From Prorocentrum cordatum (taxonomy: Eukaryota > Sar > Dinophyceae > Prorocentrales > Prorocentraceae), in NCBI GenBank assembly GCA_963575745.1, contig CAUYUJ010015748.1, forward strand, positions 221,001-285,000: a DNA stretch of 64,000 nucleotides. The letters run 5' to 3'. The position numbers and the translations under genes are program-made. The notes under the pieces were generated by a model, which saw nothing but the letters and a program-made list of their open reading frames with translations, made no database searches and was not told the DNA's origin. Positions within the stretch are counted from its first letter, which is position 1; each line of letters begins with the position of its first letter. Below are positions 31,445 to 50,238 of the stretch, piece by piece.

Positions 31445-31533
31445 TGCAACGCTCCTTTGACACAAATGAGCTGCGGACGTCAAACGATATCGATAAGAAC
31501 AGATACCACCGATTGTGCACGTGAAGGGAAACA
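31445..31533 (-). repeat. 3' LTR, 89 bp
   Basis: Identical to 52389-52477. On the minus strand it starts TGTTTCCC and ends GTTGCA, the TG...CA ends of LTRs. Exceptionally short for a copia LTR. Confidence 0.9.
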
Positions 31534-31749: not shown

Positions 31750-33564
31750 CTAGAGAGTGCGATGGAGCCGGCTGCCCTCGTCGCGCACCTTAAAGCCCAT
31801 AGCCTCAAAATGCCGCCTCAGATGTGTCTGGTCCAGCGCCTTTGTGAACGCATCGGCCGGGTTCTGGAGTCCCGGCACATGCTTGATCTCCACTTTGCCT
31901 GCCTTGACCTGGTCCTGCAGCCACAAGAACCTCGTGTCTATATGGCGGACAGCGCCAAGGCCTTGCCGCGTGGCGATGCCCTCGGCCGCCACGCTGTCAC
32001 TGCGCAGTAGTGGCCTCTCTAGATGCTGCAAGCCGAAGTCGTGGAGCATTGACTGAAGCCCCAGAGCGTGGCTCGCACCCTTCAGCATCGCATAGTACTC
32101 GGACTCCCCTGAAGACAGCGCGACCGTGGTCTGCTGAGTGGAAGCGTGCTTCACGAGATGGGAGCCGAGCGTGAGCATCATGCCACTGCGCGACTTCCTG
32201 GTGGTAGCCTCGCCAGCCCAGTCAGCGTCTACAAAGATCTCGATGCGCGTGGGGACCTCCTGCAGCTTGAACACCAGCGAGCCGGCCCTGGCCTGCTTGA
32301 GATATCGTCCCAGGCGCTTCAAGTCTATCATGTCCGACTCGCGTGGCGTCTTCATCGACTTGGCCAGAGAAGACGCTATGTAGCTGAGGTCCGGCCTGTC
32401 CTGCCCGATGTAGCTGGCGCGCATGACCAGCGAGCGGTAGAGCTTGGACTGTGCGTCGTCGAGCGTCTGGGACTGCGAGGCTTCTATCATCTCGGTCACG
32501 CTCTTCTTGACCGCAGGCGTCTGCACCGGCTTGGCGTCGCACAGGTGCAGGTCTCGAAGGATCATGTCGACGTGACGGACGTCAGACTCGATACGTGCTT
32601 CGCCTGCGGCGGGATCCCAGATGAGCACGCGGTTCAGGTAGACCGTGCTCTGGACCCCTTCGGCCGCCGAGGAGAGGCGGCCCGTGACCTTGTAGTCATA
32701 CTTCTTCAGCAACTCGTCGAACCAGGCCTCGTCGTCTGCATACATCAGCACGCCGAAGTCGTCGCCATGCACCTCGAGGGCAATGTCACGCCCTGGGTGC
32801 CACAGGATGGCGGGGCTCGACTTCCCCTGCAGGAACTCGACGGACTTGAGCAGCTCGACGTAGTCTCCCTGCCAGACCTGGCTCGCATCCATCGTGCCGT
32901 ACATCGTGCGAAGGAGAAGCCCGACGAGCGGCTCCTCCTCGCCCTGACGCTCCTCGGGTGGAAGCTCCACCCAGAGGCGCCTCTGCACGTGCCCGTAGAA
33001 GTGGGCATGCGACACGTCGTAGAACTTGTACAGCACCTCGCGGGGCTCCGAGCTCTGGAACTGCTCGAACGCCCTGCTGAGGAAAAGGCTGACCAGCGCC
33101 TTGAACGCCTCCAGCGGCGGCGTCCCCGAAAAGAGGTCCTGCTGCGGCGGCAGCAGCCCCTCGGCGCGCCGGCGGACCTTCATCTCCCGTGCCACGAGCC
33201 TCGAGCGATACAGCGGTCGCTCGAGGTCCCCCTTGTTGGTGTCAATCCACCGCGTGTCGATGGCGCGACCTCCCTCCGCCTCCATCTCGCGGCGTGGAAC
33301 CTTCTTCCACACTCCGCGGCTACGGCGCCACTCCAGCTCCTCAGCCCTGGCCTCCTTCACCTTCAGCGGGTCGAGGAAGCCCCCGCGGACGTCGTCCACG
33401 AACGCCTCCGCCTCCTGGTCCATGTCCTCGGCGTGCGGCGAGGGCCCGGCGGTGAAGCCCGCCAGGTCAGACAGCGATTCTCGAGCTCGAAGTTCCTCCC
33501 TGAGGCCGCGAAGGATGGCTCTGACCAGGCGGGGTGGGTACACCTGCGCCCTCCCACAGGTCAC
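31750..33564 (-). CDS. pol: copia pol, reverse transcriptase and RNase H part
   Basis: 604 codons of open frame, 5' end cut by the insertion (the displayed first codon is a GTG inside the terminal repeat). An RVT_2-type RT spans about 85-330: DVSHAHFYG (first catalytic Asp, 183) and VHGDDF (residues 265-270), which replaces the usual YVDD. RNase H spans about 440-560: VDADWAG (Asp 446/448), SSGESEY (Glu 487), RSDS (Asp 523) and HIDTRF (Asp 543). All catalytic acids are present. It ends at the stop 31750, about 200 bp before the PPT. From 31543 to 31749 there is only untranslated sequence. Confidence 0.92.
   Translation of the reverse strand: MTCGRAQVYPPRLVRAILRGLREELRARESLSDLAGFTAGPSPHAEDMDQEAEAFVDDVRGGFLDPLKVKEARAEELEWRRSRGVWKKVPRREMEAEGGRAIDTRWIDTNKGDLERPLYRSRLVAREMKVRRRAEGLLPPQQDLFSGTPPLEAFKALVSLFLSRAFEQFQSSEPREVLYKFYDVSHAHFYGHVQRRLWVELPPEERQGEEEPLVGLLLRTMYGTMDASQVWQGDYVELLKSVEFLQGKSSPAILWHPGRDIALEVHGDDFGVLMYADDEAWFDELLKKYDYKVTGRLSSAAEGVQSTVYLNRVLIWDPAAGEARIESDVRHVDMILRDLHLCDAKPVQTPAVKKSVTEMIEASQSQTLDDAQSKLYRSLVMRASYIGQDRPDLSYIASSLAKSMKTPRESDMIDLKRLGRYLKQARAGSLVFKLQEVPTRIEIFVDADWAGEATTRKSRSGMMLTLGSHLVKHASTQQTTVALSSGESEYYAMLKGASHALGLQSMLHDFGLQHLERPLLRSDSVAAEGIATRQGLGAVRHIDTRFLWLQDQVKAGKVEIKHVPGLQNPADAFTKALDQTHLRRHFEAMGFKVRDEGSRLHRTL
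33548..33552. repeat. 5-bp direct repeat flanking the 14.1-kb insert, left
   Basis: GCCCT, repeated at 47678-47682. The two copies sit in matching codons of the integrase and RT frames, so removing the insert with one copy rejoins pol in frame. Confidence 0.7.
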
Positions 33565-33588
33565 TTAGCACACTTTTTGGGTAACTAG
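33553..33588 (+). repeat. left terminal inverted repeat, 36 bp
   Basis: Starts CCCACAGGTCACTTAGCA and ends GTAACTAG. Pairs with 47636-47671, with two mismatches. Confidence 0.9.
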
Positions 33589-33690
33589 TATTTTGTTACC
33601 TTTTTACCCGCAAGTTCGCTTTTCACCTTTTCACCTTTTTTCAGTTACCTTTTCACCTTTTCACCTTTTCACCTTTTCTATATTGGTCAG
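33589..33690 (+). repeat. left subterminal CACCTTTT repeats
   Basis: GTTACCTTTTTACC, AGTTCGCTTTTCACC and then (TTTTCACC)n. GTTACCTTTTTACC and AGTTCGCTTTTCACC recur in the same orientation in the right end (47550-47635). Confidence 0.8.
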
Positions 33691-33756
33691 TGTCGTTGCA
33701 TGTCTACAGATAACGATAGAATGTGCAGGAGGGCGGGTCGCGGGCAGGTCGCGGGA

Positions 33757-34007
33757 CGCTTACGGGACGTTTGCGGGAAGTTTGCGGGAAGTTTGCGGGA
33801 AGTTTGCGGGAAGTTTGTGGGAAGTTTTCGGGAAGTTTCGGGAAGTTTGCGGGAAGTTTGCGGGAAGTTTGCGGGAAGTTTGCGGGAAGTGCTCGGGAAG
33901 TTTCGGGAAGTTTCGGGAAGATCGCGGGAAGATTGCGGGAAGATTGCGGGAAGTTTTCGGGAACTTTCGGGAAGTTTCGGGAAGATTCGGGATGTCCGCG
34001 GGATGTA
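33757..34007 (+). repeat. GGGAAGTTTGC array 1
   Basis: About 21 units of 10-11 bp (GGGAAGTTTGC, GGGAAGTTTC, GGGAAGATTGC). One of four arrays, all in the same orientation and all inside the 14.1-kb element. Confidence 0.9.
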
Positions 34008-34282
34008 TAGGAATCCAGACAAAGGTTTCCAGGAATGCCCAAATCTTCTCCATCCACACCGCCGCCCTCTTTTCCTCCCCATCCGTTCTCCCTATCCATA
34101 GTCTTCCATACCTGTCTACTGGAGCGGCTCCCCCTCTGCTGGCGCCGCCGCTCTGGTTCGAAGCCCCATCGCCCAGGCGATCCCCGACCCTCGGACGCGT
34201 CCACGCGCAGCTGGAGGCATGTCGCAACCAGCTCCGAGCTCCCAGGACACCGTTTGCAATTCCCTGAGCCCTGTTGATTCCT

Positions 34283-34402
34283 ATAACACGGCTAACAAAA
34301 ACACGGCTAACAGAAACACTGCTAACAGAAACATGGCTAACATAAACACGGCTAACAGAAACGCTGCTCATTCCTCATCCCTAAAACACGGCTAACAGAA
34401 AC
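34283..34402 (+). repeat. 16-bp tandem repeat AACACGGCTAACAGAA
   Basis: About seven units, with one interruption, directly upstream of the ATG of the next gene. Confidence 0.85.
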
Positions 34403-34410
34403 AGCTCAAG

Positions 34411-34822
34411 ATGGACCAGAGGAGTCCGACACCGACGGAGAAGGGTCAACGAACGCTGCCTGCGCGGTGGGCCCCATTTACGCAGTCCGTGGCTGACGCT
34501 CCGCACCAACAGGTGCGATTCAAAATCAATGGCCCCAGGTTCCCCCACGATGGTCCCGAGTGTTTGAGTTTGGTTGCCTCCAGAGGTTGCCGAGCCCGCT
34601 GATCATGAGACCATCTCGTCCGACGAGGCGCCCCTCCAGGAGCCCTCCGCGCCCGCTGCGGCGCCCGCTGCGGCGGCCGCCGCGGCCGCCGAGCGGGCCG
34701 ACGTCACCGAGTCCGCGCAGCTGACCGCTCGAGACTCCCAGACCGTCCCCTCGCTCCCAGACGCGCTGCCGCCGCCGACCGCTTCACAGATCGAGGAGGA
34801 TCCAATGGGAGACATTGAATGA
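34411..34822 (+). CDS. small two-exon cargo gene, ~112 aa, unknown function
   Basis: ATG at 34411 gives 34 codons ending CACCAACAG|GTGCG. An intron of 73 nt (34513-34585) ends CCTCCAGAG|GTTGCC and the frame continues for 78 codons to TGA at 34820. AGGT is repeated at both splice borders, so the exact cut is ambiguous. The product is acidic and low-complexity: an Ala run (PAAAPAAAAAAAAER) between Glu/Asp/Ser segments, ending EEDPMGDIE. No domain is recognised. It is the first gene inside the element, after a 16-bp tandem repeat whose last bases are GCTCAAG just before the ATG. Confidence 0.5.
34513..34585 (+). other. intron of the small cargo gene, 73 nt, AGGT direct repeat at borders
   Basis: GTGCGATTC ... 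CCTCCAGAG. A phase-0 removal keeps the downstream frame open. The length matches the 84-nt intron at 38648-38731. Confidence 0.5.
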
Positions 34823-34954
34823 TGCATGGGGGGATGGAGAAAAAACATACTGGCCCGTCTGTGCCCAACCCACCCACTTACATCGTCGGTCGCCCCCCCT
34901 CCCCCTCCTCGTCCTGCACTGTTCCCTCCCCGCCCCCTCCACGTCGACAATCAT

Positions 34955-35158
34955 CGGAATTCCGTTCGCCTTCAGCCCGTTGCTCGGCCCATTCGCGCGC
35001 ATGTGTGACTTGGCGGCGGGAATTCCACGTTCGAGCGCGCCCTGATCCACAGCCCTGTCGCGTTGGATCAGGCCGCGTTCGAACGTGAAACTCCCACCGC
35101 CAAATCACGAAGCCATAACAAAGAGCCGATCAACGGGTGGGAGGTGAACGGAATTCCG
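34955..35158. mobile_element. fold-back MITE, 204 bp
   Basis: CGGAATTCCGTTCGCC (left) and GGTGAACGGAATTCCG (right) are inverted. Further inward, TGACTTGGCGGCGGGAATTC to TGATCCA pairs with TGGATCAGG to CGCCAAATCACG over about 44 bp at roughly 80 percent. The loop is only about 14 bp. Confidence 0.75.
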
Positions 35159-35485
35159 AGGTGCGGTGGAGGATGAGAATGGGCATGGCACGTTGGTGAG
35201 ACCAGGACTTCAGGCGGTCAGCTGCTGCACTAGTTGAGCACGGCGACCATTCAGTGGCCGCCGCAGATCCCGATCGGCAGGCCCGAAGCGGGTACAAGGG
35301 TATATCAGTAGACTGATACTACGCACCTGCAACTACTACTGCCACTACCACGACCACTAGTCCTGCCAAGGCCACGGCCACTAGTGTTCGCTACTACCTC
35401 TGCTACTGTGTGACATTGTTAGTGTTCATCGTAGCTGCAGTGGTGGTGGTAGTGGTAGTGGCAGTGGTAGTAGTCAGGATGAGAA

Positions 35486-36036
35486 GGCCGAACGGCCATT
35501 CATTGTCCGTGGGCTCGTAGCTGGAATGGGGATCCGTGGTGTGGATTCTGCTTGTTGCGGTGTTAGGCTGGTGTTGTGTGTTGTCGTCGTCACACGGGCG
35601 ACCCGCCCCGCGACCCGCCCCGCGACCCACCCCGCGACCCGCCCCGCGACCCGCCCCGACCCACCCCGCGACCCACCTGCGACACACCCCGCGACCCACC
35701 CGCGACCCACCCCGCGACCGCCCCGCGACCCACCCCGCGACCGCCCCGCGACCCACCCCGCGACCCACCCGCGACCCACCCGCTACCCACCCACCCACCC
35801 GTGAAAATCCCTGCGACCCGCCCGCGGCCCACCCGCGACCCACCCGCGACCCAACAACGACCCACCCGCGACACATGTGCGACCCACCCGCGACCTACCC
35901 ACATTTTTTAACGAACAAATGTGCGCCTAGTGATCGCTCGTTGTATATGTTGTGAAAGTTTGGCGCCTGCGGCGGGCTTCTCCAGAATCTCGCGGACTGC
36001 CGACGTCACCCTCGCCCGTATCCGCAATTTTGGGGT
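35486..36036 (+). repeat. left inner long inverted repeat of the 14.1-kb element
   Basis: The head GGCCGAACGGCCATTCATTG, GATCCGTGGTGTGGATTCTG, the minisatellite array, CCCACATTTTTTAACGAACA and GGCGCCTGCGGCGGGCTTCT correspond, inverted and in the same order, to 41550-42285 (which lacks the first ~30 bp). The head and tail also occur at 16759 and 19649. Confidence 0.75.
35590..35908 (+). repeat. CCCGCGACCCAC minisatellite
   Basis: About 26 units of 11-13 bp (CCGCGACCCACC). Its complement fills 41700-42055. Confidence 0.95.
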
Positions 36037-36119
36037 GTTGCGTGTAATGGTTCCATGGGCCGTCTTCCTCTTGCTCCTTCGCATCCTCCTCCTCATTAGT
36101 TTCCTCCTCCTCATCCGCC

Positions 36120-36200
36120 TCCTCATATCCTCCTCCTCCTCCTCCTCCTCCTCCTCCTCGCCCCCGTACTTCGCATCCTCCTCCTCCTCCTCCTGCCCGT
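36120..36200 (+). repeat. (CTC)n microsatellite
   Basis: TCCTCC run in the upstream region of the next gene. Confidence 0.85.
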
Positions 36201-36332
36201 CTTCGCATTCTTTGTGGTTCGTCGTCAGAGCCGTCACCGTCCGTCTCGTGCACCGCCCTGGCCTGACCACCTACGTCATAACCCTATGTACGTAGCTGTT
36301 CGGTCCGAGTGCGATGGCTGCACACGAGCAGC

Positions 36333-38024
36333 ATGTCTGATATCAAACGTCAGCAGCTCACGAGCATCTTTTCCAAGTTCGTGAGAAAAGCCACGTGGAT
36401 CACATACGGTGAGAACATCAAGCAATCGCAGATCGACAAGCGACAGATTCGAGAGCAGGCTCCGCTGTTCAATGCGCTGCTGACGGACACTGCGATTCAA
36501 ACGTTCCCGTCATAGCCCCCCCTCTAATTGTGCACCAGCCCCCCCCCCACACATATCCAATGACATCAACATCAATATCACCATCATGCTGAGCCTCATC
36601 ATCATCGTCAGCATCGTCATCGCCAACATCAATGCAACCATTATCGTCTCGTTAGTCCATATCATTTTCGCCGCGATGATCTCCACCCGTCATCGCGTTC
36701 ATTAATGTGGTCACATGGGGGGTAACACTAACACAATGCGTTTTTATCGCAGCTCTGCAGAGGAGTTCAGTGACGACCTGCACTTCAACAAGAGCGACGT
36801 GGAGCCGTCGCTGCGCAGCGTTGCCGAGACCAACCACATATCGTTCCGAGACGCTGCGGAGCTGACCGAATGGAGTGAGACGACAGGCCGACGGTTCCGA
36901 ACCACGTGCAGGCACATCGCTGTGTATCGCGGACGGGCTTCCCCACCACAATGGTTCGTTGCTCTATTTGGTGACCGCGGAGGTGGTGCTGGCGAGGACA
37001 ACGACAATGATGAAGAAGGAGAAGAGGAGGAGCCCGTGTGCGAACCCGACGAGGACGACGAGGACGAGGAGCCACCAGTCGCGAAGAAGGCACGGAGAGG
37101 CAAGCCAGCTGCCAACGACGTGGTCGTGGGCAAGCCCGCCAGCTCCGACGCCGCCCTCATGAAGAAGCCCAGCGCCACGTTCGATGGCGATCACGAGACG
37201 GCCTACATGTTCAGCTGGGACAAGGAATCACGGCTCGCTGCAAGGAAGCCCACGACTGCTCCGACCAGCACGCCACCAGAGATGGCAATTCGAACTGAAC
37301 GACCACACGGTGCCAATCCCGAGGATGCGGTCATCGCGGTGTGGGCTGATGGCATGAGGAGGGGGGTTCCGCAGATGACAGTGAAGAGGTGGGACGCGAT
37401 CCACGGAGTTGTCAAGGCCCCTGATGGTCACGATGCGACAGGTGTCAAGACCATCCCCAGCAAGACGTCGAACCCGAACGGCATCGACCTGTACGACGGC
37501 GTGGACAAGGATGGCAACAGAGTGTGGTGCTTCTTCCGCTCGAACAGGCCCAAAGGGAAGCCCGAGCAGAGGCTAATCGCCGTCCGCGTCCACGGTCAGG
37601 ACCAGCTCACGCAGGGTGACACCCAGTGGTGGCAGGAGGCAGGTCAGCCCCCCTCAGAGCTGAAGGACTTGGAGAGCTCTACGCTGCTACGTGGGCGAAC
37701 GACTTGGCGAAGCGCTACTGCGACGGCGTGCTGACGAGGGAGCAGGTGCACGAGAACAAGGAGAAGATCAAGTACAACTACATGAAGATGATGAAGTCCA
37801 AGGTCGTGAAGAGGCCAGCATCGGCCAGTTCGCCTACGCCAGCTGGCGGCAGCTCGTCAGCGGCCGCGCCCAGCGACGGCGCCATCGGCGCGGACCACGT
37901 GGTGCTCGACGGCAAGGTTCCCGACGGCAATCGCACCACGCCGCCTCGCTGGAAGGCGGGTGCAGTTGTAGAGGAGAGCCCACCCCTGAGGCCGACCATT
38001 GAGGCACCGCCCATGTTCGATTAA
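36333..38024 (+). CDS. cargo gene B: acidic/basic, probably nuclear protein, unknown function; one frameshift
   Basis: Exon 1 36333-36502 starts MSDIKRQQLTSIFSKF. The intron 36503-36752 (GT...CGCAG, 250 nt, ATC-rich) is removed in frame. Exon 2 reads SAEEFSDDLHFNKSD..., then an acidic run (DNDNDEEGEEEEP, DEDDEDEEP), the basic KKARRGKP (NLS-like), and a globular part VIAVWADGMRRGVPQMTVKRWDAIHG ... ELYAATWANDLAKRYCDGVL. The frame must change by -1 near 37665-37700: either a frameshift, an unusual micro-intron of about 32 nt, or a sequence error. The C-terminus is Pro/Ser-rich and ends APPMFD. No known domain. It lies between the inner inverted repeats, upstream of gene C in the same direction. 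Confidence 0.55.
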
Positions 38025-38149
38025 TAGCCTGGTGTATATACGTATGGCATCGGCAACTCACATCCGCAAAGATCGGGCTGTGGGCGCACAGGGGGTCTGA
38101 AGGACGTCTGAGGAAACCCGCGCCATGTTTGCGATGAGTCCACGGGGGT

Positions 38150-38232
38150 CCCACGGGACATTCACGGGATGGTTTCGGGAAATTTCGGGAAGTTCCGGGA
38201 AGTTTCGGGAAGTTTCGGGAAGTTTCGGGAAG
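38150..38232 (+). repeat. GGGAAGTTTC array 2
   Basis: About seven units, just after the stop of gene B. Confidence 0.85.
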
Positions 38233-38533
38233 CGCTCACGATCGTGCGAAGGCTAGCTCGAAGGAAGCTGCCAGACGTTTGTCAAACATGGACCGTTCAG
38301 GTTACGGCGCGCCCAGAAAAAAACTAACAGAACATTGCATTGCTTTCGCATTATGCTGAACCCCCCCCCCGCACACACCAACTTCGTCCTATCATGCTGG
38401 CCAACCCCCCCCCGTTGACCCACCTCGTTATGTTCGCATCGGTGTTCCCAGTTCATTCCCACCCCCACTCGGTTGGGGAGGATGAGATGGGGGTGGCCCG
38501 ACGCCTCATTGCCCCACTACCATCCGCCGACAG

Positions 38534-39130
38534 GCCACGGGCGAGGGTATCGAGTTCAACGAGCTGATCGGCACCAAGTTCGAGGGGATGGCGAAGGCGC
38601 TGGAGGTCGAGTGCGCGGAGACGGCGCGCATGCGGCCCGTCATGCAGGCCATGTGGCGTGCAATTATTAATTAATGTTCCCACTATTCTTCCATGTATCG
38701 CCTTCCTGGTTCGCCTGCTTGTGTCGTCCAGGCTAACATGGGCACCGCCGCCAACCCCATGCACTGCTCCGTGCAGACCGACCTGCTGTGCACTGAGACG
38801 GAGCTCACCCAGGCGTTCAGGCTGATGATGGCCTCGCAGCCCGCCGAGGGCACGACGCCTGATGCACCAGATGATGCAGTTGAGTCTGCTGAGATGGCGG
38901 CGCTGAGGCAGAAGCTCGAAGATGAACGTGACCCAGTCCTCGAGACGATCGCTGGCGAGGGCTTTCGAGTGGAGTCAGGCACGCCAATGTACAAGCGCTT
39001 CTACCTATGGCTCCTGAACAACAGTGAGGAGAAGCAGCGGTACGACGCTCTCGACCGCGACGAGAAGGCATCGCGGCGGTCTCAGTGGGCGATGAAGAAG
39101 TACGACACCTACACGGAGATGGGGTCATAA
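38534..39130 (+). CDS. cargo gene C: unknown function, 84-nt GC-AG intron
   Basis: The exon 38534-38647 (ATGEGIEFNELIGTKFEG...ARMRPVMQ) begins after CGACAG|GC and ends ATGCAG|GCC. An 84-nt segment ends GTCCAG|GCTAAC, and the frame continues ANMGTAANPMHCSVQTDLL ... YLWLLNNSEEKQRYDALDRDEKASRRSQWAMKKYDTYTEM to TAA at 39128. CAGGC stands at both borders, so a GC-AG intron is inferred. The 5' start exon was not found; a Met is available at 38588. The product is Met/Glu-rich and helical, with a charged C-terminal block. It may be joined to gene D. Confidence 0.5.
38648..38731 (+). other. 84-nt intron with GC donor and CAGGC border repeats
   Basis: Without removal the frame stops at TAA (38671). 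With removal 'PVMQ|ANMGT' is continuous in frame. GT donors nearby give a stop or the wrong phase. Confidence 0.55.
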
Positions 39131-39139
39131 CTACAATCA

Positions 39140-39291
39140 CAGTCCAACTGGAGAATGATGAGGATGAGGAGGACGACGGTGATGAGGATGAGGCTGAGGA
39201 GGATAAGGAAGAAGAGTATAATGAGTAAGACGAGGAGGAGGAGGAGGAGGAGGAGGAGGTGTAGGAGGAAGAGGATGAGTTTGAGGAGGAG
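39140..39291 (+). repeat. GAT/GAG acidic microsatellite between genes C and D
   Basis: Reads as an Asp/Glu run in one frame but contains TAA and TAG in that frame. It is either a repeat-filled intron or a decayed acidic linker. Confidence 0.6.
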
Positions 39292-40188
39292 GGCGGCGAC
39301 GGGACACAATTGCGCATTCCAAACTGCATCCCCGAGGACTACCACACGAGGGTGCAGAAGACCATCAAGAGCGAGCAGGCCATCTACCGCTGGTTCAACT
39401 TCGACATGCTCGTCCAGGGGCAAGGAGGCGGTGCGTTCCCGAGCCGAGCTGTGATGGCAGGATGCAGGAGCATCGCGCTCAACGCGATGAAGAAGGGGCC
39501 CAGGTTCGTGAGGATCAACTCCGACTCGAATCGGATCGAGTTCAAGAAGCGCATCGACGAGGAGCGCCATGGCACACGTGACGAGTGGGCTTCTCATGAG
39601 GAGGAGCGGAACATGGCGCGTGGAAGCGGGAGCAGCGGGAGCGGCGCACCGACGCCTGCACCGACGCCTGCACCGACGCCTGCACCGACGCCTGCACCAG
39701 GGCCCTGCACAGCTGTGGATACGCCGACTCCAGTCACAGCCAAGGGCAAGGCCAAGCCTCACAACGGCAAGGCCAAGGCCAAAGGCAAGGCACAGCCGAC
39801 GGGCAAGAGCAAGGCCGCCAAGGCTTCGCCGCCACCCACCGCCAAGTCGCTGGCCAAGCACGCCACAGACGTCACCCTGCGCTACGGCATGGCGATGAAC
39901 GTCGCGAGGAATCTGCTCGAGAGGATCGACACGCAACCATCCATGGACTGGGCTCGGTCGGAGAAGTTCCGCGGCAAGCTCAAGCGCTCGATTGATCAGG
40001 TGGACAAGGTCGTGAACCAGTACGAGGAGATCAAGAGCGCAGTGTCAGTGGGCTCCACGCTCGCGTTCGGCGACGGCGTGGACTTCCACTCGGAGATGAA
40101 CAAGTACAACCAGATGACATCTGCGCTGGATGAGCTCGAGTCCCAGAGCAAGCGCATCAGGGACACGGCCTACTCCGACTCCGACTAG
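39292..40188 (+). CDS. cargo gene D: basic Lys/Ala-rich protein, unknown function (5' end open)
   Basis: Open from GGDGTQLRIPNCIPEDYHTRVQ to TAG at 40186. A globular part reads EQAIYRWFNFDMLVQGQGGG ... RSIALNAMKKGPRFVRI. A linker of five TPAP repeats follows, then a Lys/Ala/Gly-rich low-complexity segment (GKAKAKGKAQPTGKSKAAK), then a helical C-terminus (NQYEEIKSAVSVGSTLAFG ... LDELESQSKRIRDTAYSDSD). No ATG precedes the globular part in frame, so it is probably the 3' portion of gene C or has an unseen first exon. Basic low-complexity tails suggest nucleic-acid binding; that is inference only. Confidence 0.5.
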   Translation, partial: GGDGTQLRIPNCIPEDYHTRVQKTIKSEQAIYRWFNFDMLVQGQGGGAFPSRAVMAGCRSIALNAMKKGPRFVRINSDSNRIEFKKRIDEERHGTRDEWASHEEERNMARGSGSSGSGAPTPAPTPAPTPAPTPAPGPCTAVDTPTPVTAKGKAKPHNGKAKAKGKAQPTGKSKAAKASPPPTAKSLAKHATDVTLRYGMAMNVARNLLERIDTQPSMDWARSEKFRGKLKRSIDQVDKVVNQYEEIKSAVSVGSTLAFGDGVDFHSEMNKYNQMTSALDELESQSKRIRDTAYSDSD

Positions 40189-40547
40189 CTGATGGGGGTC
40201 GGGGTGTACGAACGACAGCAACCTTTTGGAAAATGAGTTGCTGTGTAACTTCTGTTAGAGAGGTTTCGAGGTAACTTGTGACAGGGAAGCGCACGTGCAC
40301 ACGTCTCAAGGTTGTGTTTTTGCGCAGTCGCCTGGTTAATGCAGCACTGTTGTCTGAGATGACGGCAGTGTGCCAATCTGCCAGGCCAGGAGTTCGTTGC
40401 TGGAACGTTTGTCTGGTGCTAGGGGAGCAAAATGTCAAGGCAGTGAGGGCATTGCTCGATCAGTTGCATAGTTGGCGCCCGCATTTCGGTCAAGCTGCGC
40501 GAATCGCAGCCTGATTTGACCCCGCGTGGACGGAAACAGCACGCAGA

Positions 40548-40785
40548 AATACCCAGGGATGTTTCCGGGAAGTTTCCGGGAAGTTTCCGGGAAGTTTCGG
40601 GAAACTAGGGCTCCCGTCCAATACATCCTCACAATTTTGGCCGGGATATTACCGGGAAGTTTCCGGGAAGTTTCCGGGAAGTTTCGGGAACTTTCAGATG
40701 TGTGCGTTTCCGAGCCGCCGACGGGAAGTTTGCGGGAAGTTTGCGGGAAGTTTCGGGAAGTTTCGGGAAGTTTGCTGGACGGTGA
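40548..40785 (+). repeat. GGGAAGTTTCC / GGGAAGTTTGC array 3, two blocks
   Basis: 40556-40606 and 40648-40778. Units alternate between TTTCC, TTTGC and TTTC spacers. From 40800 to 41400 no gene is recognised. Confidence 0.9.
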
Positions 40786-41407
40786 AGGTTTGGGGTCACG
40801 ACGGCTAGAAAAAAATCATCTTTTTGGATTTCCCCAGACAGTGCTAATGCAACTTGTGGATGTGTGCGCCCGCGAGTATGCTCGACGCGCAGTTCTGGAC
40901 ACATTGTGGGTGACGAGCGGGCAGCTATCGTGTGATCTCGTGGGACGTGCTCACAAAGCTCGGAGTTCTTCTGGCAGATTGCATCACCTTGACCACAGCT
41001 CATCACCGCCACGGAAGAGTAATGCGAGCCAGTTTCCAATTTCTACACGCCTTACTCCCCGTCCCTGCGTTCCTACGCGTGCTCATCCCCTCATATCATT
41101 ACCCCCCTTTTTCCTTTTACTAGTTCCCCAGTCGCTTCCCCCCATCTCGCCTTCGGACCTCGCCTCCGACCTCCGACGCCCAAGATTGCCATCACAGTTG
41201 GCGTTTAGTGCCAGACGTGACCGCGCCTCGCCACACCAAGCCTCGAACGTCTGCTGCACGGGGGAGGGGTGCAGGATCGCACGAGTGGAGACCCGAGGCT
41301 CAGCCATAATCAGTGTGTGGAATAGTCGCAGCATGTACGATTTAAATATTTGCGACGTGCCAGGGCAACCCCTAAATACTCCTAGATTACGTTAGCTACT
41401 AACGCAC

Positions 41408-41512
41408 CTGAATCGTCACTGTCGTCGTCGTCGTTGTCGTCGTCGTCGTTGTCCTCGTCCTCGTCCTAGTCATCGTGGTCGACGTCGTCGTCATCCTCGT
41501 CGTGGTCGGGGC
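41408..41512 (+). repeat. (GTC)n microsatellite
   Basis: GTCGTC/CTCGTC triplets. Confidence 0.85.
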
Positions 41513-41699
41513 AAACTGGCAGATGCGCATGTGTGTAAAATGTACGTCGGACTCCGCAGATGCGGATGAGAGTGAGGGCTCGGCGGGGACGTCGGCAGTC
41601 TGCGATACTCTGGAGACAACCGCCGCAGGCGCCCAAGTCTCACACATTATGCAACGAGCCCGTCGCAGGTGCCGATTTTTTCGTTAAACCAATGTGGGT

Positions 41700-42055
41700 A
41701 AGTAGCGAGTGTGCCGCGGATGGGTCGCAAATGGGTCGCAGCTGGGTTGCTGTTGGGTCGCAGATGGGTCGCGGGTGGGTCGCAGGTGGGTCGCGGGGTA
41801 GGTCGCGGGTGGGTCACGGGTGGGTCGCGGGTGGGTCGCAAGTGGGTCGCGGGTGGGTCGCGGGGTGGGTCGCGGGTGGGTCGCGGGGTGGGTCGTGGGG
41901 TGGGTCGTGGGTGGGTCGCGGGTGGGTCGCGGGTGGGTCGCGGGGTGGGTCGCGGATGGGTCGCGGGGTGGGTCGCAAGGTGTGTCGCGGGGTGGGTCGC
42001 GGGTTGGGTCGCGGTGTGGGTCGCGGGGTGGGTCGCGGGGTGGGTCGCAGGTGGG
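41700..42055 (+). repeat. GGGTCGCGGGTG minisatellite
   Basis: About 30 units of 11-13 bp, the complement of the array at 35590-35908. Confidence 0.95.
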
Positions 42056-42084
42056 GCGACGGCAACAAACAACACCACCGCCCA

Positions 42085-42087
42085 CAA

Positions 42088-42131
<44 letters not shown>

Positions 42132-42245
42132 ACCACATCAACAACAACAAGAACAACAACAACAACACCACCACCAACAACAACAACAACAAAGAAACAA
42201 CAACAACCACAACGACAACAGCCGCAACAACAGCAACAACGCATC
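42085..42245 (+). repeat. (CAA)n microsatellite
   Basis: CAA/ACC triplets giving Asn, Gln or Thr runs. Confidence 0.95.
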
Positions 42246-42406
42246 AACACAACAAGTATGATCCTCACCACGGATCGCCAGCTTGACAAGCTGATGATGG
42301 CAGGAGAGCCCCCCCCCACCCCGAATTGTCGAGCTCCCCCTATATCATACTGGTCTGAGCAAAAGGGGCAAACCCCAAAACAAATGACAACACCCTGGCC
42401 CTTGTT

Positions 42407-42425
42407 TCCGTAGCCATTTAGCTCA
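42407..42425 (+). other. degenerate spliced-leader relict before the transposase ATG
   Basis: TCCGTAGCCATTTAGCTCA: the first 13 bases are identical to the SL, then one deletion and one substitution in the remainder. The transposase ATG follows one base later at 42427. Confidence 0.7.
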
Positions 42426-42426
42426 T

Positions 42427-44487
42427 ATGGTAGCGTTTCGCAAGCGGAGGCGCAGCAGGTTTACAGCGAGTGTTGTTCGCTCGCGAGCTTGGGAGCTTCG
42501 CGAGTGGGAGCGCGGCCAGACAGAGGGCAGCCAGCACGGAGCTCTTGCGTTGGAGGAGCATCTGCTTTCACAATACGCAAGTGGGGCGCTGGATGCGAAA
42601 GCTTTCTGTTTGACGTGCCATTTTGCAACGCAAGCAGGTGTGACAGGAGGGGACATTTCGCAATACGCCCACCCGCCAACCGCTCAGACAGGAAAGTTTG
42701 CTCAGCACCTTCGGTCGGTTCTCCCTGAATCTGAAGCAGCACCTGAGTACCACCATCTGTCAGTGCCAGTTTATCGGCGCGGTCGGAGGGAAATTAAACA
42801 AATTGTGGTTTCGCCACCGCACGAGGTGTTGAATGCCGAAGTGGTGAAGATCGACGAGACACCAGCGGGGATACCGTTTCCACCGCCAGAAGAATGGTCG
42901 GGAGTATATCGGAACCACCCGTTCCGTGTCATCGATGGCGATGGTCGGCGAACGTTTCCGATCGCATTGTACCTCGATGGCGTGAAGTACACTCGTGCGA
43001 TCGGCCCTGGGAGAAGTGATACGGTGCTTGGGATAACAGTATTCAACCTACGGACGCTTAAGAGACACCTTGTGGCCGTTGTCTCCAAGCAGCAGGTGTG
43101 CCATTGCGGGTGCAGGGGCTGGTGTACATATCGGCCCATTTTCGCATACATTCACTGGTCATTGGCTGCCGCAGTTGTCGGTCTACGCCCGATGCTCCGC
43201 TGGGATAAGGCGCCATGGCCGAACGAGTGTAAGAGCAAAGAGTTGTTTGACGCTTGCCCACGCATGACAGCTAGATTTTTGCTATGCCAGATCAAAGGCG
43301 ATTGGGCTGAGTTCACGCAGACCCTGGGGATGCCAACGTGGTCGTCTCACCATCACCCTTGCATCTGGTGTGCAGCAACCAAAGACAGCCTCTGCGAATA
43401 CGACGGTGTATGTTTGTATGATAGTGCGTGGGGCGAGCCTCAGATCAGTTATGATGGCGCGTGTGAGCGCTGCGAGATAACGATCAACGTGACAGATGAT
43501 CGCGTGCGGGGTCTTCTGCTGGACATTGGTGGTTTGCAGTTCGACAGGAATCGTTCGGTGCAAGGTCGGTATTTGGCGTGCGATGTGCCAGCGCTGGGAC
43601 TGAAACGATTTGACAGGTTGGAACCGTCTGACGACGTTCCAGACACGGGTGCGTTCGAGGAGATTCCAACCCCATTTGTATGTATTTTCTGGAGAAAAAA
43701 CAAAGACAACAGGGGGCGTCTTGGGGATAGAACGCATCATCGAAATCCATTGTTTTCGCGTGACATTGGAACTAGTCCAGAAGTAACGTTGCACATCGAC
43801 ACCTTGCACACTGTATACTTAGGGGTGTGCTCACGATTTGTTCATGCAACGTTGTGGGGCGCTATCAACGCCAACATCTGGGGCCTGGGTTGCGGTAGCG
43901 ATGGGTTAAAGGAAGAAGCGTTGAAGTTAATGTTCAATAATTACAAAACATGGTGCAGCCAACATGGCGAGATCCCATTGAACGCTCAATGGAGCACCCT
44001 TACTGTTGGAATGATTGGGGGGCCCGATTCAATCTTATTGAAGACGAAGGCTGCTGAAACTGGCGTGCTGCTGAAATGGGCGGTTCGGTTTTGCGAAACA
44101 GAAAAGCACAAGTTCGACACGGGCCCGATTTTGTGGACAGCAGGTAGAGCGCTTTTGGAATATATGAACATTTTACGGGCATCACCCCAAACCGTCTCAC
44201 ACAATGTATGCCAGCGTTTGCTTGACCTGTGCGTGCGTCATCTCACACTCATGCAGGACGCTGGTGTTGGCGACATACCAAAATGTCATTTGTTTGTGCA
44301 CATGACACTCCGCATACCATTGTGCGGCAATCCAAAATATTATTCTACATTCCATGACGAATCGTTGAATCTGATTCTGGCAGGCGTGGCAGCCTCGTCT
44401 CACCGATCGACCTGGGAAAGGTCGATATTCGATAGAATTCGATTGCTTCCGCTTGTTTGCAAGGGGCACCCGTTTGCAGCAGTGTGA
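42427..44487 (+). CDS. putative DDE-type transposase, 686 aa, intact
   Basis: Single open frame. The N-terminal ~110 residues are basic (FRKRRRSRF) with CLTCHF. A core starts at PIALYLDGVKYTR (Asp near 183) and continues GRSDTVLGITVFNLRT, KQQVCHCGCRGWCTYRPIFAYIHWSL (a CxCxC motif near 223-231) and WSSHHHPCIWCA. HIDTLHTVYLGVCSRF (Asp near 457) has the D-x-x-H-x-x-x-LG pattern that closes the core in several eukaryotic DDE superfamilies with long insertions. A later acidic candidate is in TFHDESLNL. My assignment is from these motifs plus its position in an element with terminal inverted repeats; the exact superfamily is not identified. The intact frame suggests recent activity. The downstream stretch 44488-46940 shows no recognised gene. 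Confidence 0.6.
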   Translation: MVAFRKRRRSRFTASVVRSRAWELREWERGQTEGSQHGALALEEHLLSQYASGALDAKAFCLTCHFATQAGVTGGDISQYAHPPTAQTGKFAQHLRSVLPESEAAPEYHHLSVPVYRRGRREIKQIVVSPPHEVLNAEVVKIDETPAGIPFPPPEEWSGVYRNHPFRVIDGDGRRTFPIALYLDGVKYTRAIGPGRSDTVLGITVFNLRTLKRHLVAVVSKQQVCHCGCRGWCTYRPIFAYIHWSLAAAVVGLRPMLRWDKAPWPNECKSKELFDACPRMTARFLLCQIKGDWAEFTQTLGMPTWSSHHHPCIWCAATKDSLCEYDGVCLYDSAWGEPQISYDGACERCEITINVTDDRVRGLLLDIGGLQFDRNRSVQGRYLACDVPALGLKRFDRLEPSDDVPDTGAFEEIPTPFVCIFWRKNKDNRGRLGDRTHHRNPLFSRDIGTSPEVTLHIDTLHTVYLGVCSRFVHATLWGAINANIWGLGCGSDGLKEEALKLMFNNYKTWCSQHGEIPLNAQWSTLTVGMIGGPDSILLKTKAAETGVLLKWAVRFCETEKHKFDTGPILWTAGRALLEYMNILRASPQTVSHNVCQRLLDLCVRHLTLMQDAGVGDIPKCHLFVHMTLRIPLCGNPKYYSTFHDESLNLILAGVAASSHRSTWERSIFDRIRLLPLVCKGHPFAAV

Positions 44488-45243
44488 ATGTGGATTGCGC
44501 TTCGCGCATGAGTGGACGTGTTAGCGAACACGCGTGCCGAGACAGCGGGCTTGTATTCCAAATGTATGTAGTAATGAGACATGGGTACCATGACACGCCG
44601 TACTGTCGTAACTCCTATTGTGCGTGGTGGCTGGTGCACTAGGTGTGCAAACATGCATGCGGGCTTGTGTACACAAAACACATGTGATAATATACGATAT
44701 GTGTGTACACGACATCCGACCAACACTGCATTGCATTGCATATGCATGTGTCTGGACATGTGCCTGTATCCCGCCCTGAAACCATGGCACCCGACTATAC
44801 GACCACATCTACACACACGTCCCAACACCATGAATCCGTAGGCCGTCTCTCATCAACCTTCCCCTGCGTCTCCTCATCCTCCCCGTCATCAACCTCATCC
44901 TTCCCACCCTCTTCCACTGGAGCGGCGCTAGGCCGCATTAGTTTCACACGTGCCCTTTGTTGAAGCGGCGTTTGGCCGCACATGCACCAGTTGAGCAAAC
45001 TGGCTCGACGCTGGTTGGTGCGACGCGGACTGTTGCGACTTGCGGCAAGTTGACCCAAGGCTCTCTTCGCCGCACGCCACTCCCCAACCCTTCTATGTCC
45101 CCCACGCCGACCGCGTCATTCCGCACCCTGCTCCCCCATGGGTCCCGTCTCTGTGGCCGTGCGGGGTCGAGGGGTTACGGCAACGTGGGCCAATCGAGGC
45201 CGCCGTTCGAGCCCCGTCCAGAGACGACGCTCAGGTTATTCTG

Positions 45244-45300
45244 CCACGTGGCCCATGGCCCTGTCAGGTGCTGCATGTGGCAGGGCCATGGGCCACGTGG
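45244..45300. repeat. perfect 20-bp inverted repeat with 17-nt loop
   Basis: CCACGTGGCCCATGGCCCTG at 45244-45263 and its exact reverse complement at 45281-45300. Each arm is also internally palindromic (CCACGTGG, CCATGG). Confidence 0.95.
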
Positions 45301-45415
45301 TGACGAGTTCCAATGTCGGCCGATGTACGAGCTGGGCCCAAGTAGGAGAGGCACCTATGAGAGACGGAGGGGGCAAGCTGATGCATATGAATATGAAAAT
45401 GGGGAACTAGAGCTC

Positions 45416-45419
<4 letters not shown>

Positions 45420-45447
<28 letters not shown>
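45420..45447. repeat. (TA)n microsatellite
   Basis: AT dinucleotides; CAA-type repeats follow at 45505-45565. Confidence 0.95.
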
Positions 45448-45450
<3 letters not shown>

Positions 45451-46589
45451 CGAGATACGCATACAGGCATGCACAACCACAGAGAGAGAGAGAACGATAT
45501 ATACCAACAACACCAGCAACAACAACAACAACAACACCAACAACACAACCAAACAAACAACATCCACACATAAATCTAGCTACTCGAGCATCCGTGGCCT
45601 GGCCCGTTTGCGATGCCCCTCGGGTCAGAACCAAGAATACGAGTACCACATTGACCATTCCATTGAGGCAGGGGTTTCATATGTAATGGTGGACGGGATT
45701 ACGTTATTCCACAGGGAGGTGTACGAAAATATGCAGCGATCGCCACTGGCCGAGGATATGGGGGGTGAATGTGAGGATGAAGGGAGGATGTGGGAATGGG
45801 GTGAAGATGACGGGGGAGGGGGGAGGGAATGCATTGGAAGTGGCGCTGTAGACCAAGGTGGAGGTGGGGACGGGGAGGGAGGGAGGGTTAGGAGGGGGGG
45901 GCACGCACACTCATGAAAACACATCTCCCAAGACGGCCTGGTTGCAACACTGGCCGTTCACCTAGGGCCAGGCGGCGATAGATGTACGCATCGGTCTTGC
46001 GCGCACGAGGCGGTAGGGCGATGGGCGAGGGTTCCGAGGGGGGGGGGGGGCGTGATTCTCGGGCACGCTCGAAACTCAGGCCCTGCATTCTGAGAGTGCA
46101 GGCGCGAGCGTGTCCGACCCATCCGCCCCCTCGGGAGGCCGACCCCATGGCTCTGCCAAACGAAGACCAGGCACGGTGGAGGCGCCTGCAGCTGGAGAAA
46201 AAAAGCCACCGAGCGATCGAACGACATGAAGATACACGTATCTCAAAAGGGTCGAGAGTACAGAGGGGGAAACGGATGGCAATGGAAGGAAATTAACAAA
46301 TAGACAGAGAGTGAGAGAGAGTGTGTGCGATAACGAGAGATACACAACGCGAGAAAGACGGATAATATGGAAGTACACTAATCGCGATGGTATGCCATGC
46401 TATGCCCTGCTGTGCTCGACTCCACCCGCGCCCACTGCTACGCAATTTCTGATCCGCCCCCCAAAAAACAATCCGCAACGCTATGCCACGAAATGTTAAG
46501 ATGCAGCGCTGTACGCCGTTATGGTATGAGGTTCCGCGCTCATACACCACGGGACTCATTCCACGCACGACGTTGACCATCATATAAAG

Positions 46590-46632
46590 ATAAATGTATA
46601 TATTTATGTGTATATATGCAAACATATATATA

Positions 46633-46667
<35 letters not shown>

Positions 46668-46668
46668 C
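46590..46668. repeat. (TA)n-rich tract
   Basis: TATATG/TATA repeats of about 80 bp. Confidence 0.9.
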
Positions 46669-46944
46669 ATGCGAAGGCAAGCAAGTTGTGCGACGTATCC
46701 GCGTGATACTGACCCAAAATAAAAACGTGCTTCACTATCTTGCAACATTCGCCACCCGCCAGATGCGCTGCACAATGTCGCAACATTCACGGCTAAGCAC
46801 GCTGCGCAACATCGCGGCGTCGCGCGCGCCGCCTCACCATACTGCCACGCATCGGCTGTGGCACAACGCCAGAACAGCATAACACAACAATAACATTACA
46901 AACCAACCAACGGGAGATCACGGCGCGCTCGAGGGAACAACGCG

Positions 46945-47075
46945 GGAAATGTGCGGGAAATCCACGGGATGTTACAGGAAGTTTGCGGGAAGTTTGCGGG
47001 ATGTTTGCGGGAAGGTTCGGGAACTTCGCGGGAAGTGTTCGGGACGTTTGCGGGAAGTTTCGGGAACTTTGCGGG
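46945..47075 (+). repeat. GGGAAGTTTGC array 4
   Basis: About twelve degenerate units (GGGAAGTTTGC, GGGATGTTTGC, GGGAACTTCGC), near the right end, in the same orientation as array 1 at the left end. The region 47080-47545 holds no gene I can support. Confidence 0.85.
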
Positions 47076-47549
47076 CGCTCGCAGGCGCGCCGCACATGCT
47101 AGCGCGCCGCCGTTCCGCCCGATCAGAGCCCGTCGCCGCGCGGGGGAATGTCGCCCTACAGTGCGAACCGCCTCCCTCGGCATATTCCTCGTCGCTCCTC
47201 CCCCTCCCTCCGATTTCTCGCGTCGCGCCGATCGGCCCTGGCCCGTTAAACAGCAGGAGCTGCCGCGCGAGAGTTACCAGTGAACGGCCAAATCTGCGGC
47301 GCCTCCGCCGACCCTCTCTCGTCGCCCACCGCCCCACGCATGCGCGTCGCGCGTCGGGCGCGCATTGCGCGGCCACGCGTCGAAACAAGAGACTGCGCGC
47401 AGGCGGTGTCGTTCCGCGCGCAATGGCGCGATCGCGCTGCCGAAGTGGCCGCGGGCGTCGCGCGCCCACGCCATCTTTTCCTAGATGTGCGCACTTTTGA
47501 TAGTCCACCCTGCGCAGTCACGCAAAACGCCGACAACCCGCACGCGTAA

Positions 47550-47635
47550 AAAGTTACCTTTTTACCTTTTTGCCTTTTTGTAGTTCTCTTTTTATGGCGC
47601 AGTTCCCTTTTTTCCTAAAAAGTTCGCTTTTCACC
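47550..47635 (+). repeat. right subterminal T-rich repeats
   Basis: AGTTACCTTTTTACCTTTTTG and AGTTCGCTTTTCACC, in the same orientation as at 33590-33640. Confidence 0.75.
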
Positions 47636-47671
47636 CTAGTTCCCCAAAAAGTATGCTAAGTGACCTGTGGG
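47636..47671 (-). repeat. right terminal inverted repeat, 36 bp
   Basis: Reverse complement of 33553-33588, with two mismatches. Confidence 0.9.
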
Positions 47672-50238
47672 CTTAGAGCCCTCTTGTCACCGAGCAAGTG
47701 CACGTGCCGGTAGGGTTCGCCGCCGATGGACGGGCAGCGGCACTCCCCAGCAAGGATGCCGGCCAAGACCTGTGAGTTCGTCAGCCAGCCCGTCTCCTTG
47801 CGCACGAATGCCTCGCGCCCATCGGGCCCCCGAGAGTGGAGGCCCCAGCGGCACATCGGGCCGCGCACCAAGTACACGCCCGGCAACTCCTTGACCCTCT
47901 GGACGCACGGCCGCGACCAGGAGGATGCGCCCCAGGGGTGCTCGTGCAGGAAAAGTGCTCCTCGCTGATGCCTGCTCTCGCACACCTTCATGGAGAACTC
48001 CAGGTGTGTCTCGCCCTCGAGGACCTCGGAAGCCACGATGCCCTCGTCCCGCTTGAAGTTGCTGAGCTGCCTGAGCTTGGAGAAGACCGTGCACGGCGGG
48101 GAGGTCACCGTGAGGAGAGGGTCGTCCTCCAGCAGCTTCTTCATGGCTGCTCGGCGGTGGTCCTCGCGAAGCAAGTCCCAGCCGGTGTAGAGGTCCGCCG
48201 CGAGGCCTGCTGTCAGGCCCACGCCGAGCGCCTTACCCTTGAAGCGCTCGGGCGAGTAGACCTCTGCGAGGTCGACCCCGTTGATCTCGGTCAACAGCGC
48301 GGACACCTCCTTCAGCTCCTTGATCGACATGGCGTTGTCGCCGATCAGGTCCGTGGCGCTCACCAGCGCCAGGATCTCCCAGTAGACCTTGCCCTTGACC
48401 TCGTCAAAGGCGCCGACGTCCATGGAGCTGCCAGCCCGCGCAGCTGGCCCTGCCAAGTCCTCCATGTCGCCTCCTCCTCTAGCCCCCTCTGGGCTAGGCG
48501 CGGGCTGCACCAGCCCGGCGGACACTGCCGCGCTCGCCGGTCCAGCCGACGAGCTCGAGCCTCCATCCACGATCATCTGCCCGTGGAGGTCCGGCTCGCT
48601 CCCGGCTCTCTTGGGCCCCCTTGGCCCGTCTCGCAACTGCGGCGGGCGGCGCTCCTCGGCGGATACGCTCGCAGCACGCTTCCTCGATGCTGCCGGTGGC
48701 GTCGCCGGGGCGCTCGCACGTGGACCTGCCCTGGCCACGTCCGCGCCGGGTCCTGCCGCGGCGCCTCCCCCGCCGCTGGCCGCGGCGGCTCCTCCGCCGC
48801 TGGCTGCGGCCGCTCCAGGCTGGGGCGCCGGCTGCGCCGCGCTCTCCTCCGCCTGAGCCTCGCGAGCACTCGCCCTCAAGTGGTGCTCCGCCAGTCTCCG
48901 CTGGCCTGCCGAGTCCTTCATCAGCTCGGCCTCGATGCGATCGCGGCACTCTTGAGAGTGCGCGACCCGCGCCGACCCCCTTGCCATGAGGTCTGCGCAG
49001 CCTGGACACCCCGGAGTGGCTCCGAAGCGTTCGATGTCCTTCTTGAGTACGTAGCGCCTCCTGACCACGGTGTCGTGGTCCTCCTGCGTGTCTCTGGTCA
49101 CGGTGATCGGGCCCACGGGCTGCGCGAGCAACACCGCGGGGGAAACCTCCCACGGCAGTCCAGCAAGCCTGCCCCATGACCCTGGCGCCTCCGGTGACCA
49201 TGCCTGGGCTCGATGTAGGCGCTTGAAGCCCTGGGCCCGCACCACACCCGACTGCGTCATGACGAGCAGCGCGCCTGTCCGCGAGTGGTAGCCCACGAAG
49301 TGCCCCACGAGCATCTTGGGGGCCAGCGTACTCCTCTCGTCTCCGACTCCGAGAGGTCGATAGTGCACCCTCTCGCCGAACTCCGCCGCGAACTTCCTCC
49401 AGGGGCGGCCACGCCTCCGCTGCTCGGCCGACATGCCGTCAACGCCGAGCCTGAACTTGGAGATGGAGTCCGCGGCAAACTGGGGCAGCCACCTGACGAT
49501 GGGATGCCCGGGCGAGATCTCGAAGCCGAAAGACTTCTGCATGGAGAAGAAGTTCGCTCGGATGACCTTCTTCACCTCCTTCACGCTGGCTTCGACCTCG
49601 CCGTTGCTCTTGTGCTCGCCCTTGGGCGACTCCTGCGGGATGCACTCGACATGCTGGCCCACACCAACCATCACTGCATTCTTGATCGCACAGATGCTCG
49701 CCTCGCCGTCGGACTTGAGCACGACGCGGCGGTGCCCGAGGTGCTTCAAGAAGCCCACGAGCCACTTGACCACGAAGTCGGACGCGGTCTTGTCCTTGAC
49801 GGCGGTCGCCCCCTTCATGCCGTACTTGCGGTCCGTCACCACTAAGATGGGGATGGAGCCGTCGTCCTCCACGTCCTGGACCTTCTCCCCGATGAAGGCG
49901 AAGTCCATGCTGACGACCGGGTCGGCGTCATCACGATCCTCAGGTCGCCGGGCGTGCTGGGCGCCCAGGCCGGCTGCCCGCGCGCACTCCTCGCACCACG
50001 AGCGGTAGACCGCGTGTCCGGATGCCAAGTGCTGCTCCCGCTCGGCCTGCGTCGGCGCCCTGCCACGGCGCGCGACGCGAGCGGGTGCCACTTCCGGCGC
50101 CTGCTGCTCCTCCTCCTGGCCCACGTCTAAGTCCGTGAACGGCGCTGGGCCCGGGCTCCCAGCAACAGCGCCGCCTCCTCCCGGCCTTGCGGCCAGGCCT
50201 GCCGGTGAGGGACTGGCGACCCGCCGTCGACCGGGCAC
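47656..50238 (-). CDS. pol: copia pol, integrase part, truncated by the insertion
   Basis: 860 codons of open frame, ending in a stop created inside the insert terminal repeat. A zinc-binding region HLASGH...WCEEC (His 70 and 75, Cys 82 and 85) is unusually compact. The integrase core has Asp 112 (SMDFAFIG), Asp 177 (LKSDGEAS) and Glu 214 (SNGEVEAS). After the core comes a C-terminal extension with several Ala/Gly-rich linkers (AAASGGGAAAASGGGGAAAG), then LLEDDPLLTVTSPPCTVFSKL, a conserved-looking block between IN and RT. It is in the -1 frame relative to gag-protease and overlaps it by 112 nt, so expression probably needs a -1 frameshift near 50238. Confidence 0.9.
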   Translation of the reverse strand: MPGRRRVASPSPAGLAARPGGGGAVAGSPGPAPFTDLDVGQEEEQQAPEVAPARVARRGRAPTQAEREQHLASGHAVYRSWCEECARAAGLGAQHARRPEDRDDADPVVSMDFAFIGEKVQDVEDDGSIPILVVTDRKYGMKGATAVKDKTASDFVVKWLVGFLKHLGHRRVVLKSDGEASICAIKNAVMVGVGQHVECIPQESPKGEHKSNGEVEASVKEVKKVIRANFFSMQKSFGFEISPGHPIVRWLPQFAADSISKFRLGVDGMSAEQRRRGRPWRKFAAEFGERVHYRPLGVGDERSTLAPKMLVGHFVGYHSRTGALLVMTQSGVVRAQGFKRLHRAQAWSPEAPGSWGRLAGLPWEVSPAVLLAQPVGPITVTRDTQEDHDTVVRRRYVLKKDIERFGATPGCPGCADLMARGSARVAHSQECRDRIEAELMKDSAGQRRLAEHHLRASAREAQAEESAAQPAPQPGAAAASGGGAAAASGGGGAAAGPGADVARAGPRASAPATPPAASRKRAASVSAEERRPPQLRDGPRGPKRAGSEPDLHGQMIVDGGSSSSAGPASAAVSAGLVQPAPSPEGARGGGDMEDLAGPAARAGSSMDVGAFDEVKGKVYWEILALVSATDLIGDNAMSIKELKEVSALLTEINGVDLAEVYSPERFKGKALGVGLTAGLAADLYTGWDLLREDHRRAAMKKLLEDDPLLTVTSPPCTVFSKLRQLSNFKRDEGIVASEVLEGETHLEFSMKVCESRHQRGALFLHEHPWGASSWSRPCVQRVKELPGVYLVRGPMCRWGLHSRGPDGREAFVRKETGWLTNSQVLAGILAGECRCPSIGGEPYRHVHLLGDKRALSPQVT
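47678..47682. repeat. 5-bp direct repeat flanking the insert, right
   Basis: GCCCT, as at 33548-33552. Confidence 0.7.

Follow-up and report, generated by a model that had tools for sequence, protein, structure and literature searches.

A 14-kb transposon of Prorocentrum cordatum with CCC ends and 2-bp target duplications, probably from an undescribed lineage of RAG1-fold DDE transposons

The window analyzed here, 64,000 nucleotides of the dinoflagellate Prorocentrum cordatum (positions 221,001 to 285,000 of contig CAUYUJ010015748.1, assembly GCA_963575745.1), contains a DNA transposon of 14,119 bp at 33553..47671 on the plus strand, which carries a transposase gene preceded by two open reading frames (ORFs) termed ORF-A and ORF-B. 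The insert is a real transposon with more than a dozen copies in the genome. It is very likely a cut-and-paste element belonging to a lineage of RAG1-fold DDE transposons that appears to be undescribed and is best filed near or within the CMCT clade. No description of it was found in the titles and abstract openings of the searchable literature on dinoflagellate transposons, a search that left Repbase and most subscription papers outside.

The genome searched comprised 4.128 Gb in 21,875 contigs, among which the window's contig is labeled C14899. The left terminal inverted repeat (TIR; 33553..33588, plus strand) begins CCCACAGGTCACTTAGC and was bounded by comparison of flanks, and the right TIR (47636..47671, minus strand) was bounded by the junctions of other copies and an exact terminus search. 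As predicted from the window, these 36-bp repeats are identical at 34 of 36 positions, whereas shuffling the 200-bp stretches around the ends 200 times gave 24 at best. Across copies the ends are fixed as 5'-CCCACAGG...CCTGTGGG-3'. The 16-base terminus has 31 exact matches in the genome (none for the reversed control), 26 of which make 13 pairs spaced 14 to 15 kb apart; short nonautonomous copies with the same exact ends were absent from these 31 matches. Among the five unpaired termini, one lies at a contig end (C4349) and one close to a contig start (C20689), two have an altered right terminus (C10827 and C19448), and one (C10225) resembles, by eye, a solitary diverged right end. The left 248 bp matched the genome at 17 places, end to end or almost, with identities of at least 96% at 15 of them (the window included), 90% at one, and 84% at one. 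The element's ends recur on 15 contigs, whose left flanks are of 13 kinds, and the flanks diverge directly outside CCCACAGG except in three contig pairs with a common left flank (C13364/C4349, C10827/C7880, and C19448/C15598). One further contig, C7113, has only the left end in common with the window family, with no longer alignment to the element among the matches listed. The search for further copies that had been proposed for these TIRs thus located the second copy with the same two ends on which the original prediction depended.

Both junctions were read on the 15 contigs, and an identical dinucleotide was present at both in 12 of them (CT, TA, AG, AA, AA, AG, CT, CA, TT, AT, and CG, plus GA in C13433). 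These represent nine kinds of dinucleotide, with no fixed target sequence, and the third base agrees in none of the first 11 junction pairs. In the window the duplication is CT (33551..33552 and 47672..47673), which is supported both by the junctions of the other copies and by empty sites. When the window's flanks were fused with one CT, they matched 34 uninterrupted places at 93 to 100% identity (33 over all 259 bases and one over bases 6 to 259; the best differs at 1 of 259); the remaining 3 of the 37 matches listed were a weak one and the two flanks in the window itself. The empty site, in a copia element, reads ...GCGCCCTTAGAGCCCT... with a single CT. Because the flanks meet in these 34 places, the insertion was precise and its duplication is CT; because the empty site has a single CT, GCCCT and TTAGA are both host sequence. 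The GCCCT direct repeat originally taken as the target duplication, and the six-base asymmetry ascribed to the right end, are therefore rejected: the six bases belong to copia, and the element ends at 47671 instead of 47677. The predicted position within copia pol was borne out, as the half-genes are in frame when joined with one CT; the joined frame stays open over 1,200 bases, and the element plus one CT measures 14,121 bp, which is divisible by 3. Both halves, identified by frame continuity, are on the minus strand: the 3' half at 31750..33564 also matches RVT_2 (E = 2.3e-6; 27.9 bits, slightly below the Pfam cutoff of 31.6), and for the 5' half at 47656..50328 Pfam gave nothing at E ≤ 1.

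The predicted 686-amino-acid (aa) transposase frame is present at 42427..44487 on the plus strand, and its assignment draws on 74 homologues, conserved motif columns, and a predicted model with a RAG1 fold. Its marked residues are D184, D292, C312/C315, H461, H621/H625, and E645. D184, D292, and the CxxC pair C312 and C315 are kept in 63 to 64 of 64 alignment rows, and H621, H625, and E645 are kept in most rows that extend that far. The solved structures nearest to the predicted model are RAG1, BbRAGL, and Transib, with sequence identities of about 10 to 12% within the structural alignments, and the motif spacings are similar. The model and motifs together predict a RAG1 core fold, in which D184, D292, and E645 are the predicted catalytic residues and C312, C315, H621, and H625 a predicted zinc site. 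A viral relationship found no backing: of two pattern matches in the viral contigs scanned, neither was confirmed as related, and the fold comparison returned nothing viral at E ≤ 0.001.

Diverged relatives in the same genome extend the pattern. A search for transposase relatives gave 6,477 candidates in a first look, which is not a copy count, and among the 65 scored, 31 of 45 diverged matches have transposase frames without stops. In a family whose transposase is 47% identical, two copies of 18.3 and 18.6 kb end in CCCAGAGG...CCTCTGGG, with duplications of GG (C19455) and AA (C19822); the left end of a third copy is lost in N. A 44% family has the ends CCCAGAGGTC...GACCTCTGGG and a TG duplication in C15441, and for its copy in C2344 the right end was not found in the first 1,368 bases. 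Both diverged families start 5'-CCCAGAGG, and the ends are 5'-CCCA..TGGG-3' in all three families, the window's included. The order A-B-transposase on one strand is likewise common to the window element and the diverged families. Because the three families agree, a wider group is probably marked by 5'-CCCANAGG ends and 2-bp duplications. We lean toward regarding this group as a RAG1-fold lineage of superfamily rank, whose defining features are these ends, the 2-bp duplications, and the A-B-transposase order; it would have multiplied in this genome into numerous diverged families that retain open transposase frames, and would rank with the larger known reservoirs of RAG1-like recombinases, and with the least described.

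Several observations weigh against the main reading, a cut-and-paste element of an undescribed RAG1-fold lineage. The eight best Foldseek matches have TM-scores of 0.36 to 0.49 and root-mean-square deviations of 11 to 15, so the whole-chain superposition is loose. A profile search against transposase families, as had been proposed, gave no Pfam transposase match at E ≤ 1 in any of the 64 proteins searched (PF02992, Transposase_21, was not among the families matched, a screen that distant members could escape), and the A2 profile retrieved no RAG1 from Protein Data Bank (PDB) sequences at E ≤ 10. The ends are CCCA..TGGG and not the CA..TG usual in CMCT elements. Matching 2-bp flanks are lacking in 3 of the 15 contigs (C15546, C7880, and C15598); the GG duplication of C19455 lies within a G run and is weak alone; and C17707 of the 44% family has an unexplained AA versus TT. 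Finally, pooled pN/pS (nonsynonymous to synonymous polymorphism) among young copies, calculated for ORF-A and the first part of ORF-B, is 0.81 and 1.00, respectively, which indicates no clear constraint. As neither RAG1 nor CMCT profiles gave a sequence-level match, the link to RAG1 rests on the predicted fold and the motifs.

The strongest rival is that the element is an ordinary diverged CACTA/EnSpm transposon, with the same enzyme class, the TNPD plus TNPA-like two-protein logic, and drifted termini. En/Spm has one or more accessory genes and repeat arrays near its ends, which the accessory proteins and subterminal repeats of the window element resemble, and 2-bp duplications fall within the 2 to 5 bp of the clade. 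The C(2)C motif and the H(3-4)H motif are also shared, being attributed to EnSpm in PMC12730594. The original prediction had set CACTA aside on account of the ends; these do differ, but the motifs and predicted fold place the enzyme in the wider RAG1/Transib/CACTA clade. The fold-match lists contained no CACTA, Mirage, or Chapaev structure, an absence that tests nothing since, to our knowledge, none has been solved. Against a CACTA origin, three families end in CCCANAGG rather than CAC, the duplications are 2 bp and not 3 bp, with a third base that agrees in none of 11 junction pairs, and no Pfam transposase model matched any of the 64 proteins at E ≤ 1; we consider an ordinary CACTA element unlikely.

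It is far less probable that the element is Transib- or ProtoRAG-like, a close protist relative of the RAG1 ancestor. The nearest solved structures and the motif spacings would fit such a relationship, but no CACTA structure is known in the PDB to compete, and the identity to RAG1 and BbRAGL is about 11%. In Transib and RAG elements the duplications are 5 bp and the termini start with CAC, whereas the window element has 2-bp duplications and starts with CCC; Transib has one gene, in contrast to three here. A RAG2-like partner was not recognized, and in the window neither the ORF-A nor the ORF-B frames reached a Pfam cutoff. Among other CMCT lineages (Plavaka, ESTA, and Lanisha), 2-bp duplications are made by PlavakaA and ESTA according to PMC12730594. 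PlavakaA has the ends TGT..ACA, unlike CCC..GGG here, and ESTA duplicates TA only, unlike the nine kinds of dinucleotide in the 12 copies here. The CCCA..TGGG ends argue against plain CACTA, Transib, or PlavakaA. MULE and KDZ elements, with duplications of 8 to 11 bp, are ruled out by the duplication length. Polinton/Maverick elements, which make 6-bp duplications and carry genes for DNA polymerase B, integrase, and capsid, are excluded by the same feature and by the Pfam scan of five frames of the element, in which none of these genes was matched.

The genes upstream of the transposase had been predicted to be captured cargo. ORF-A lies at 36715..38024 (plus strand), where the 438-codon frame (435 aa from the first Met) present in six other copies is frameshifted near 37674 to 37677. 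Of 16 entries compared (the window and 15 others), 6 have the single 438-codon frame and 5 more a single frame of 430 to 513 codons; ORF-A is broken in the window copy, C13364, and C7880, is degraded in C13433, and was not found by signature in C7113. ORF-B is represented by frames of 151 aa (38675..39130) and 307 aa (39265..40188), both on the plus strand and supported by the frame list and copy comparison, which are probably one gene with an intron, because its relative in the diverged element of C2532 is a single 474-aa frame. A capture of host genes would be compatible with database searches for ORF-A, which gave nothing among 7,999 and 288 candidates, and with the lack of a Pfam match above the cutoff for either gene. 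However, among the 45 diverged transposases (<70% identity), a relative of ORF-A was located within 30 kb of at least 24, and in 24 of 24 such cases it lies upstream on the same strand, 4.0 to 7.8 kb from the transposase. An ORF-B relative follows in the same order in all three of the A-to-transposase stretches read, from the 66%, 47%, and 44% families (E = 2e-57, 3e-18, and 7e-32, respectively, for the second part of ORF-B). Captured cargo is therefore rejected as very improbable, and ORF-A and ORF-B are, as judged from gene order, conserved partner genes of the transposase. Ratios of nonsynonymous to synonymous substitution against the 87% copy (0.55 to 0.60 for ORF-A; 0.82 and 0.68 for the two parts of ORF-B) are weak evidence for constraint on both. 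Separately, in the 44% family a 276-aa frame occurs between ORF-B and the transposase (L058, C15441:24882-32616, sense position 4429); no counterpart was noted in the window element, though none was searched for.

Four contigs (C7880, C15546, C15598, and C20689) share flanks crosswise with other copies: C7880 combines the left flank of C10827 with the right flank of C16119, in C15598 a left flank shared with C19448 meets a right flank shared with C15546 and C20689, and the two junctions of C15546 read TA and CA. Either assembly joins between near-identical 14-kb copies or recombination would explain them. That the window's own junctions are such joins or a chimera is refuted by the 34 empty copia sites in which its flanks meet exactly and by the duplications matched in 12 of 15 contigs, and we give this practically no weight.

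The original prediction of an autonomous or recently mobile element of a poorly described kind holds for mobility, for the element's own transposase, and for its poorly described nature. Over the first 8.5 kb, 13 other copies are 96.4 to 98.5% identical to the window copy (C15450 compared from its position 189 and C7880 as two segments), with 87.3% for C13433; recent movement is likely. The transposase frame is uninterrupted in 6 of 15 same-family places, the window included, and is split, partial, or interrupted by stops in the rest. The window copy itself may not be autonomous, because its ORF-A is frameshifted.

The element also contains arrays of a direct repeat, CGGGAAGTTT, with 29 occurrences on one strand and none on the other. 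The arrays sit close to the ends and between genes, at about 33.7 to 34.0, 38.1 to 38.5, 40.6 to 41.0, and 46.9 to 47.1 kb. By plus-strand bins, there are 13 repeats at the left (33553..34052), 3 exact and 6 CGGGAA between ORF-A and ORF-B (38053..38552), 11 exact between ORF-B and the transposase (40553..41052), and 2 exact and 7 CGGGAA at the right (46553..47052). In the stretches read, two relatives carry one-sided units of their own, CGGGAACATT (13) and GGTCATCCGA (20), and a third has only simple repeats among its commonest words. Two arrays of another type, CGACCCACCC, lie 6 kb apart inside the element in opposite orientation (35569 to 35892 and 41691 to 42077) and are up to about 95% complementary over 56 to 70 bp.

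We hypothesize that the transposase would cut the DNA where the CCC termini begin, perhaps with a hairpin step like that of RAG1 and Transib, and that the element ends would be joined across target strands staggered by 2 bp. By analogy with TNPA, which binds repeats in En/Spm, the ORF-A and ORF-B proteins may be accessory factors with the direct-repeat arrays, both subterminal and intergenic, as their binding sites. RAG1 (the antibody-gene recombinase), Transib, and CACTA transposases have a common fold, and most of what is known of them comes from animals, plants, and fungi. A protist lineage that differs in its ends, in the length of its duplication, and in its partner genes would offer an independent point on how the stagger is set and partners are recruited, and would bear on the age of the different parts of the RAG1 core. 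It would also put a name to mobile DNA of a kind that escapes the Pfam library used, in an algal genome of very large size.

The host copia element is itself multicopy and little diverged, as seen in the 34 places matched over 259 bp. Identical 89-bp direct repeats at 31445 to 31533 and 52389 to 52477 bracket the two copia half-genes; these repeats could be long terminal repeats of very small size, or parts of them.
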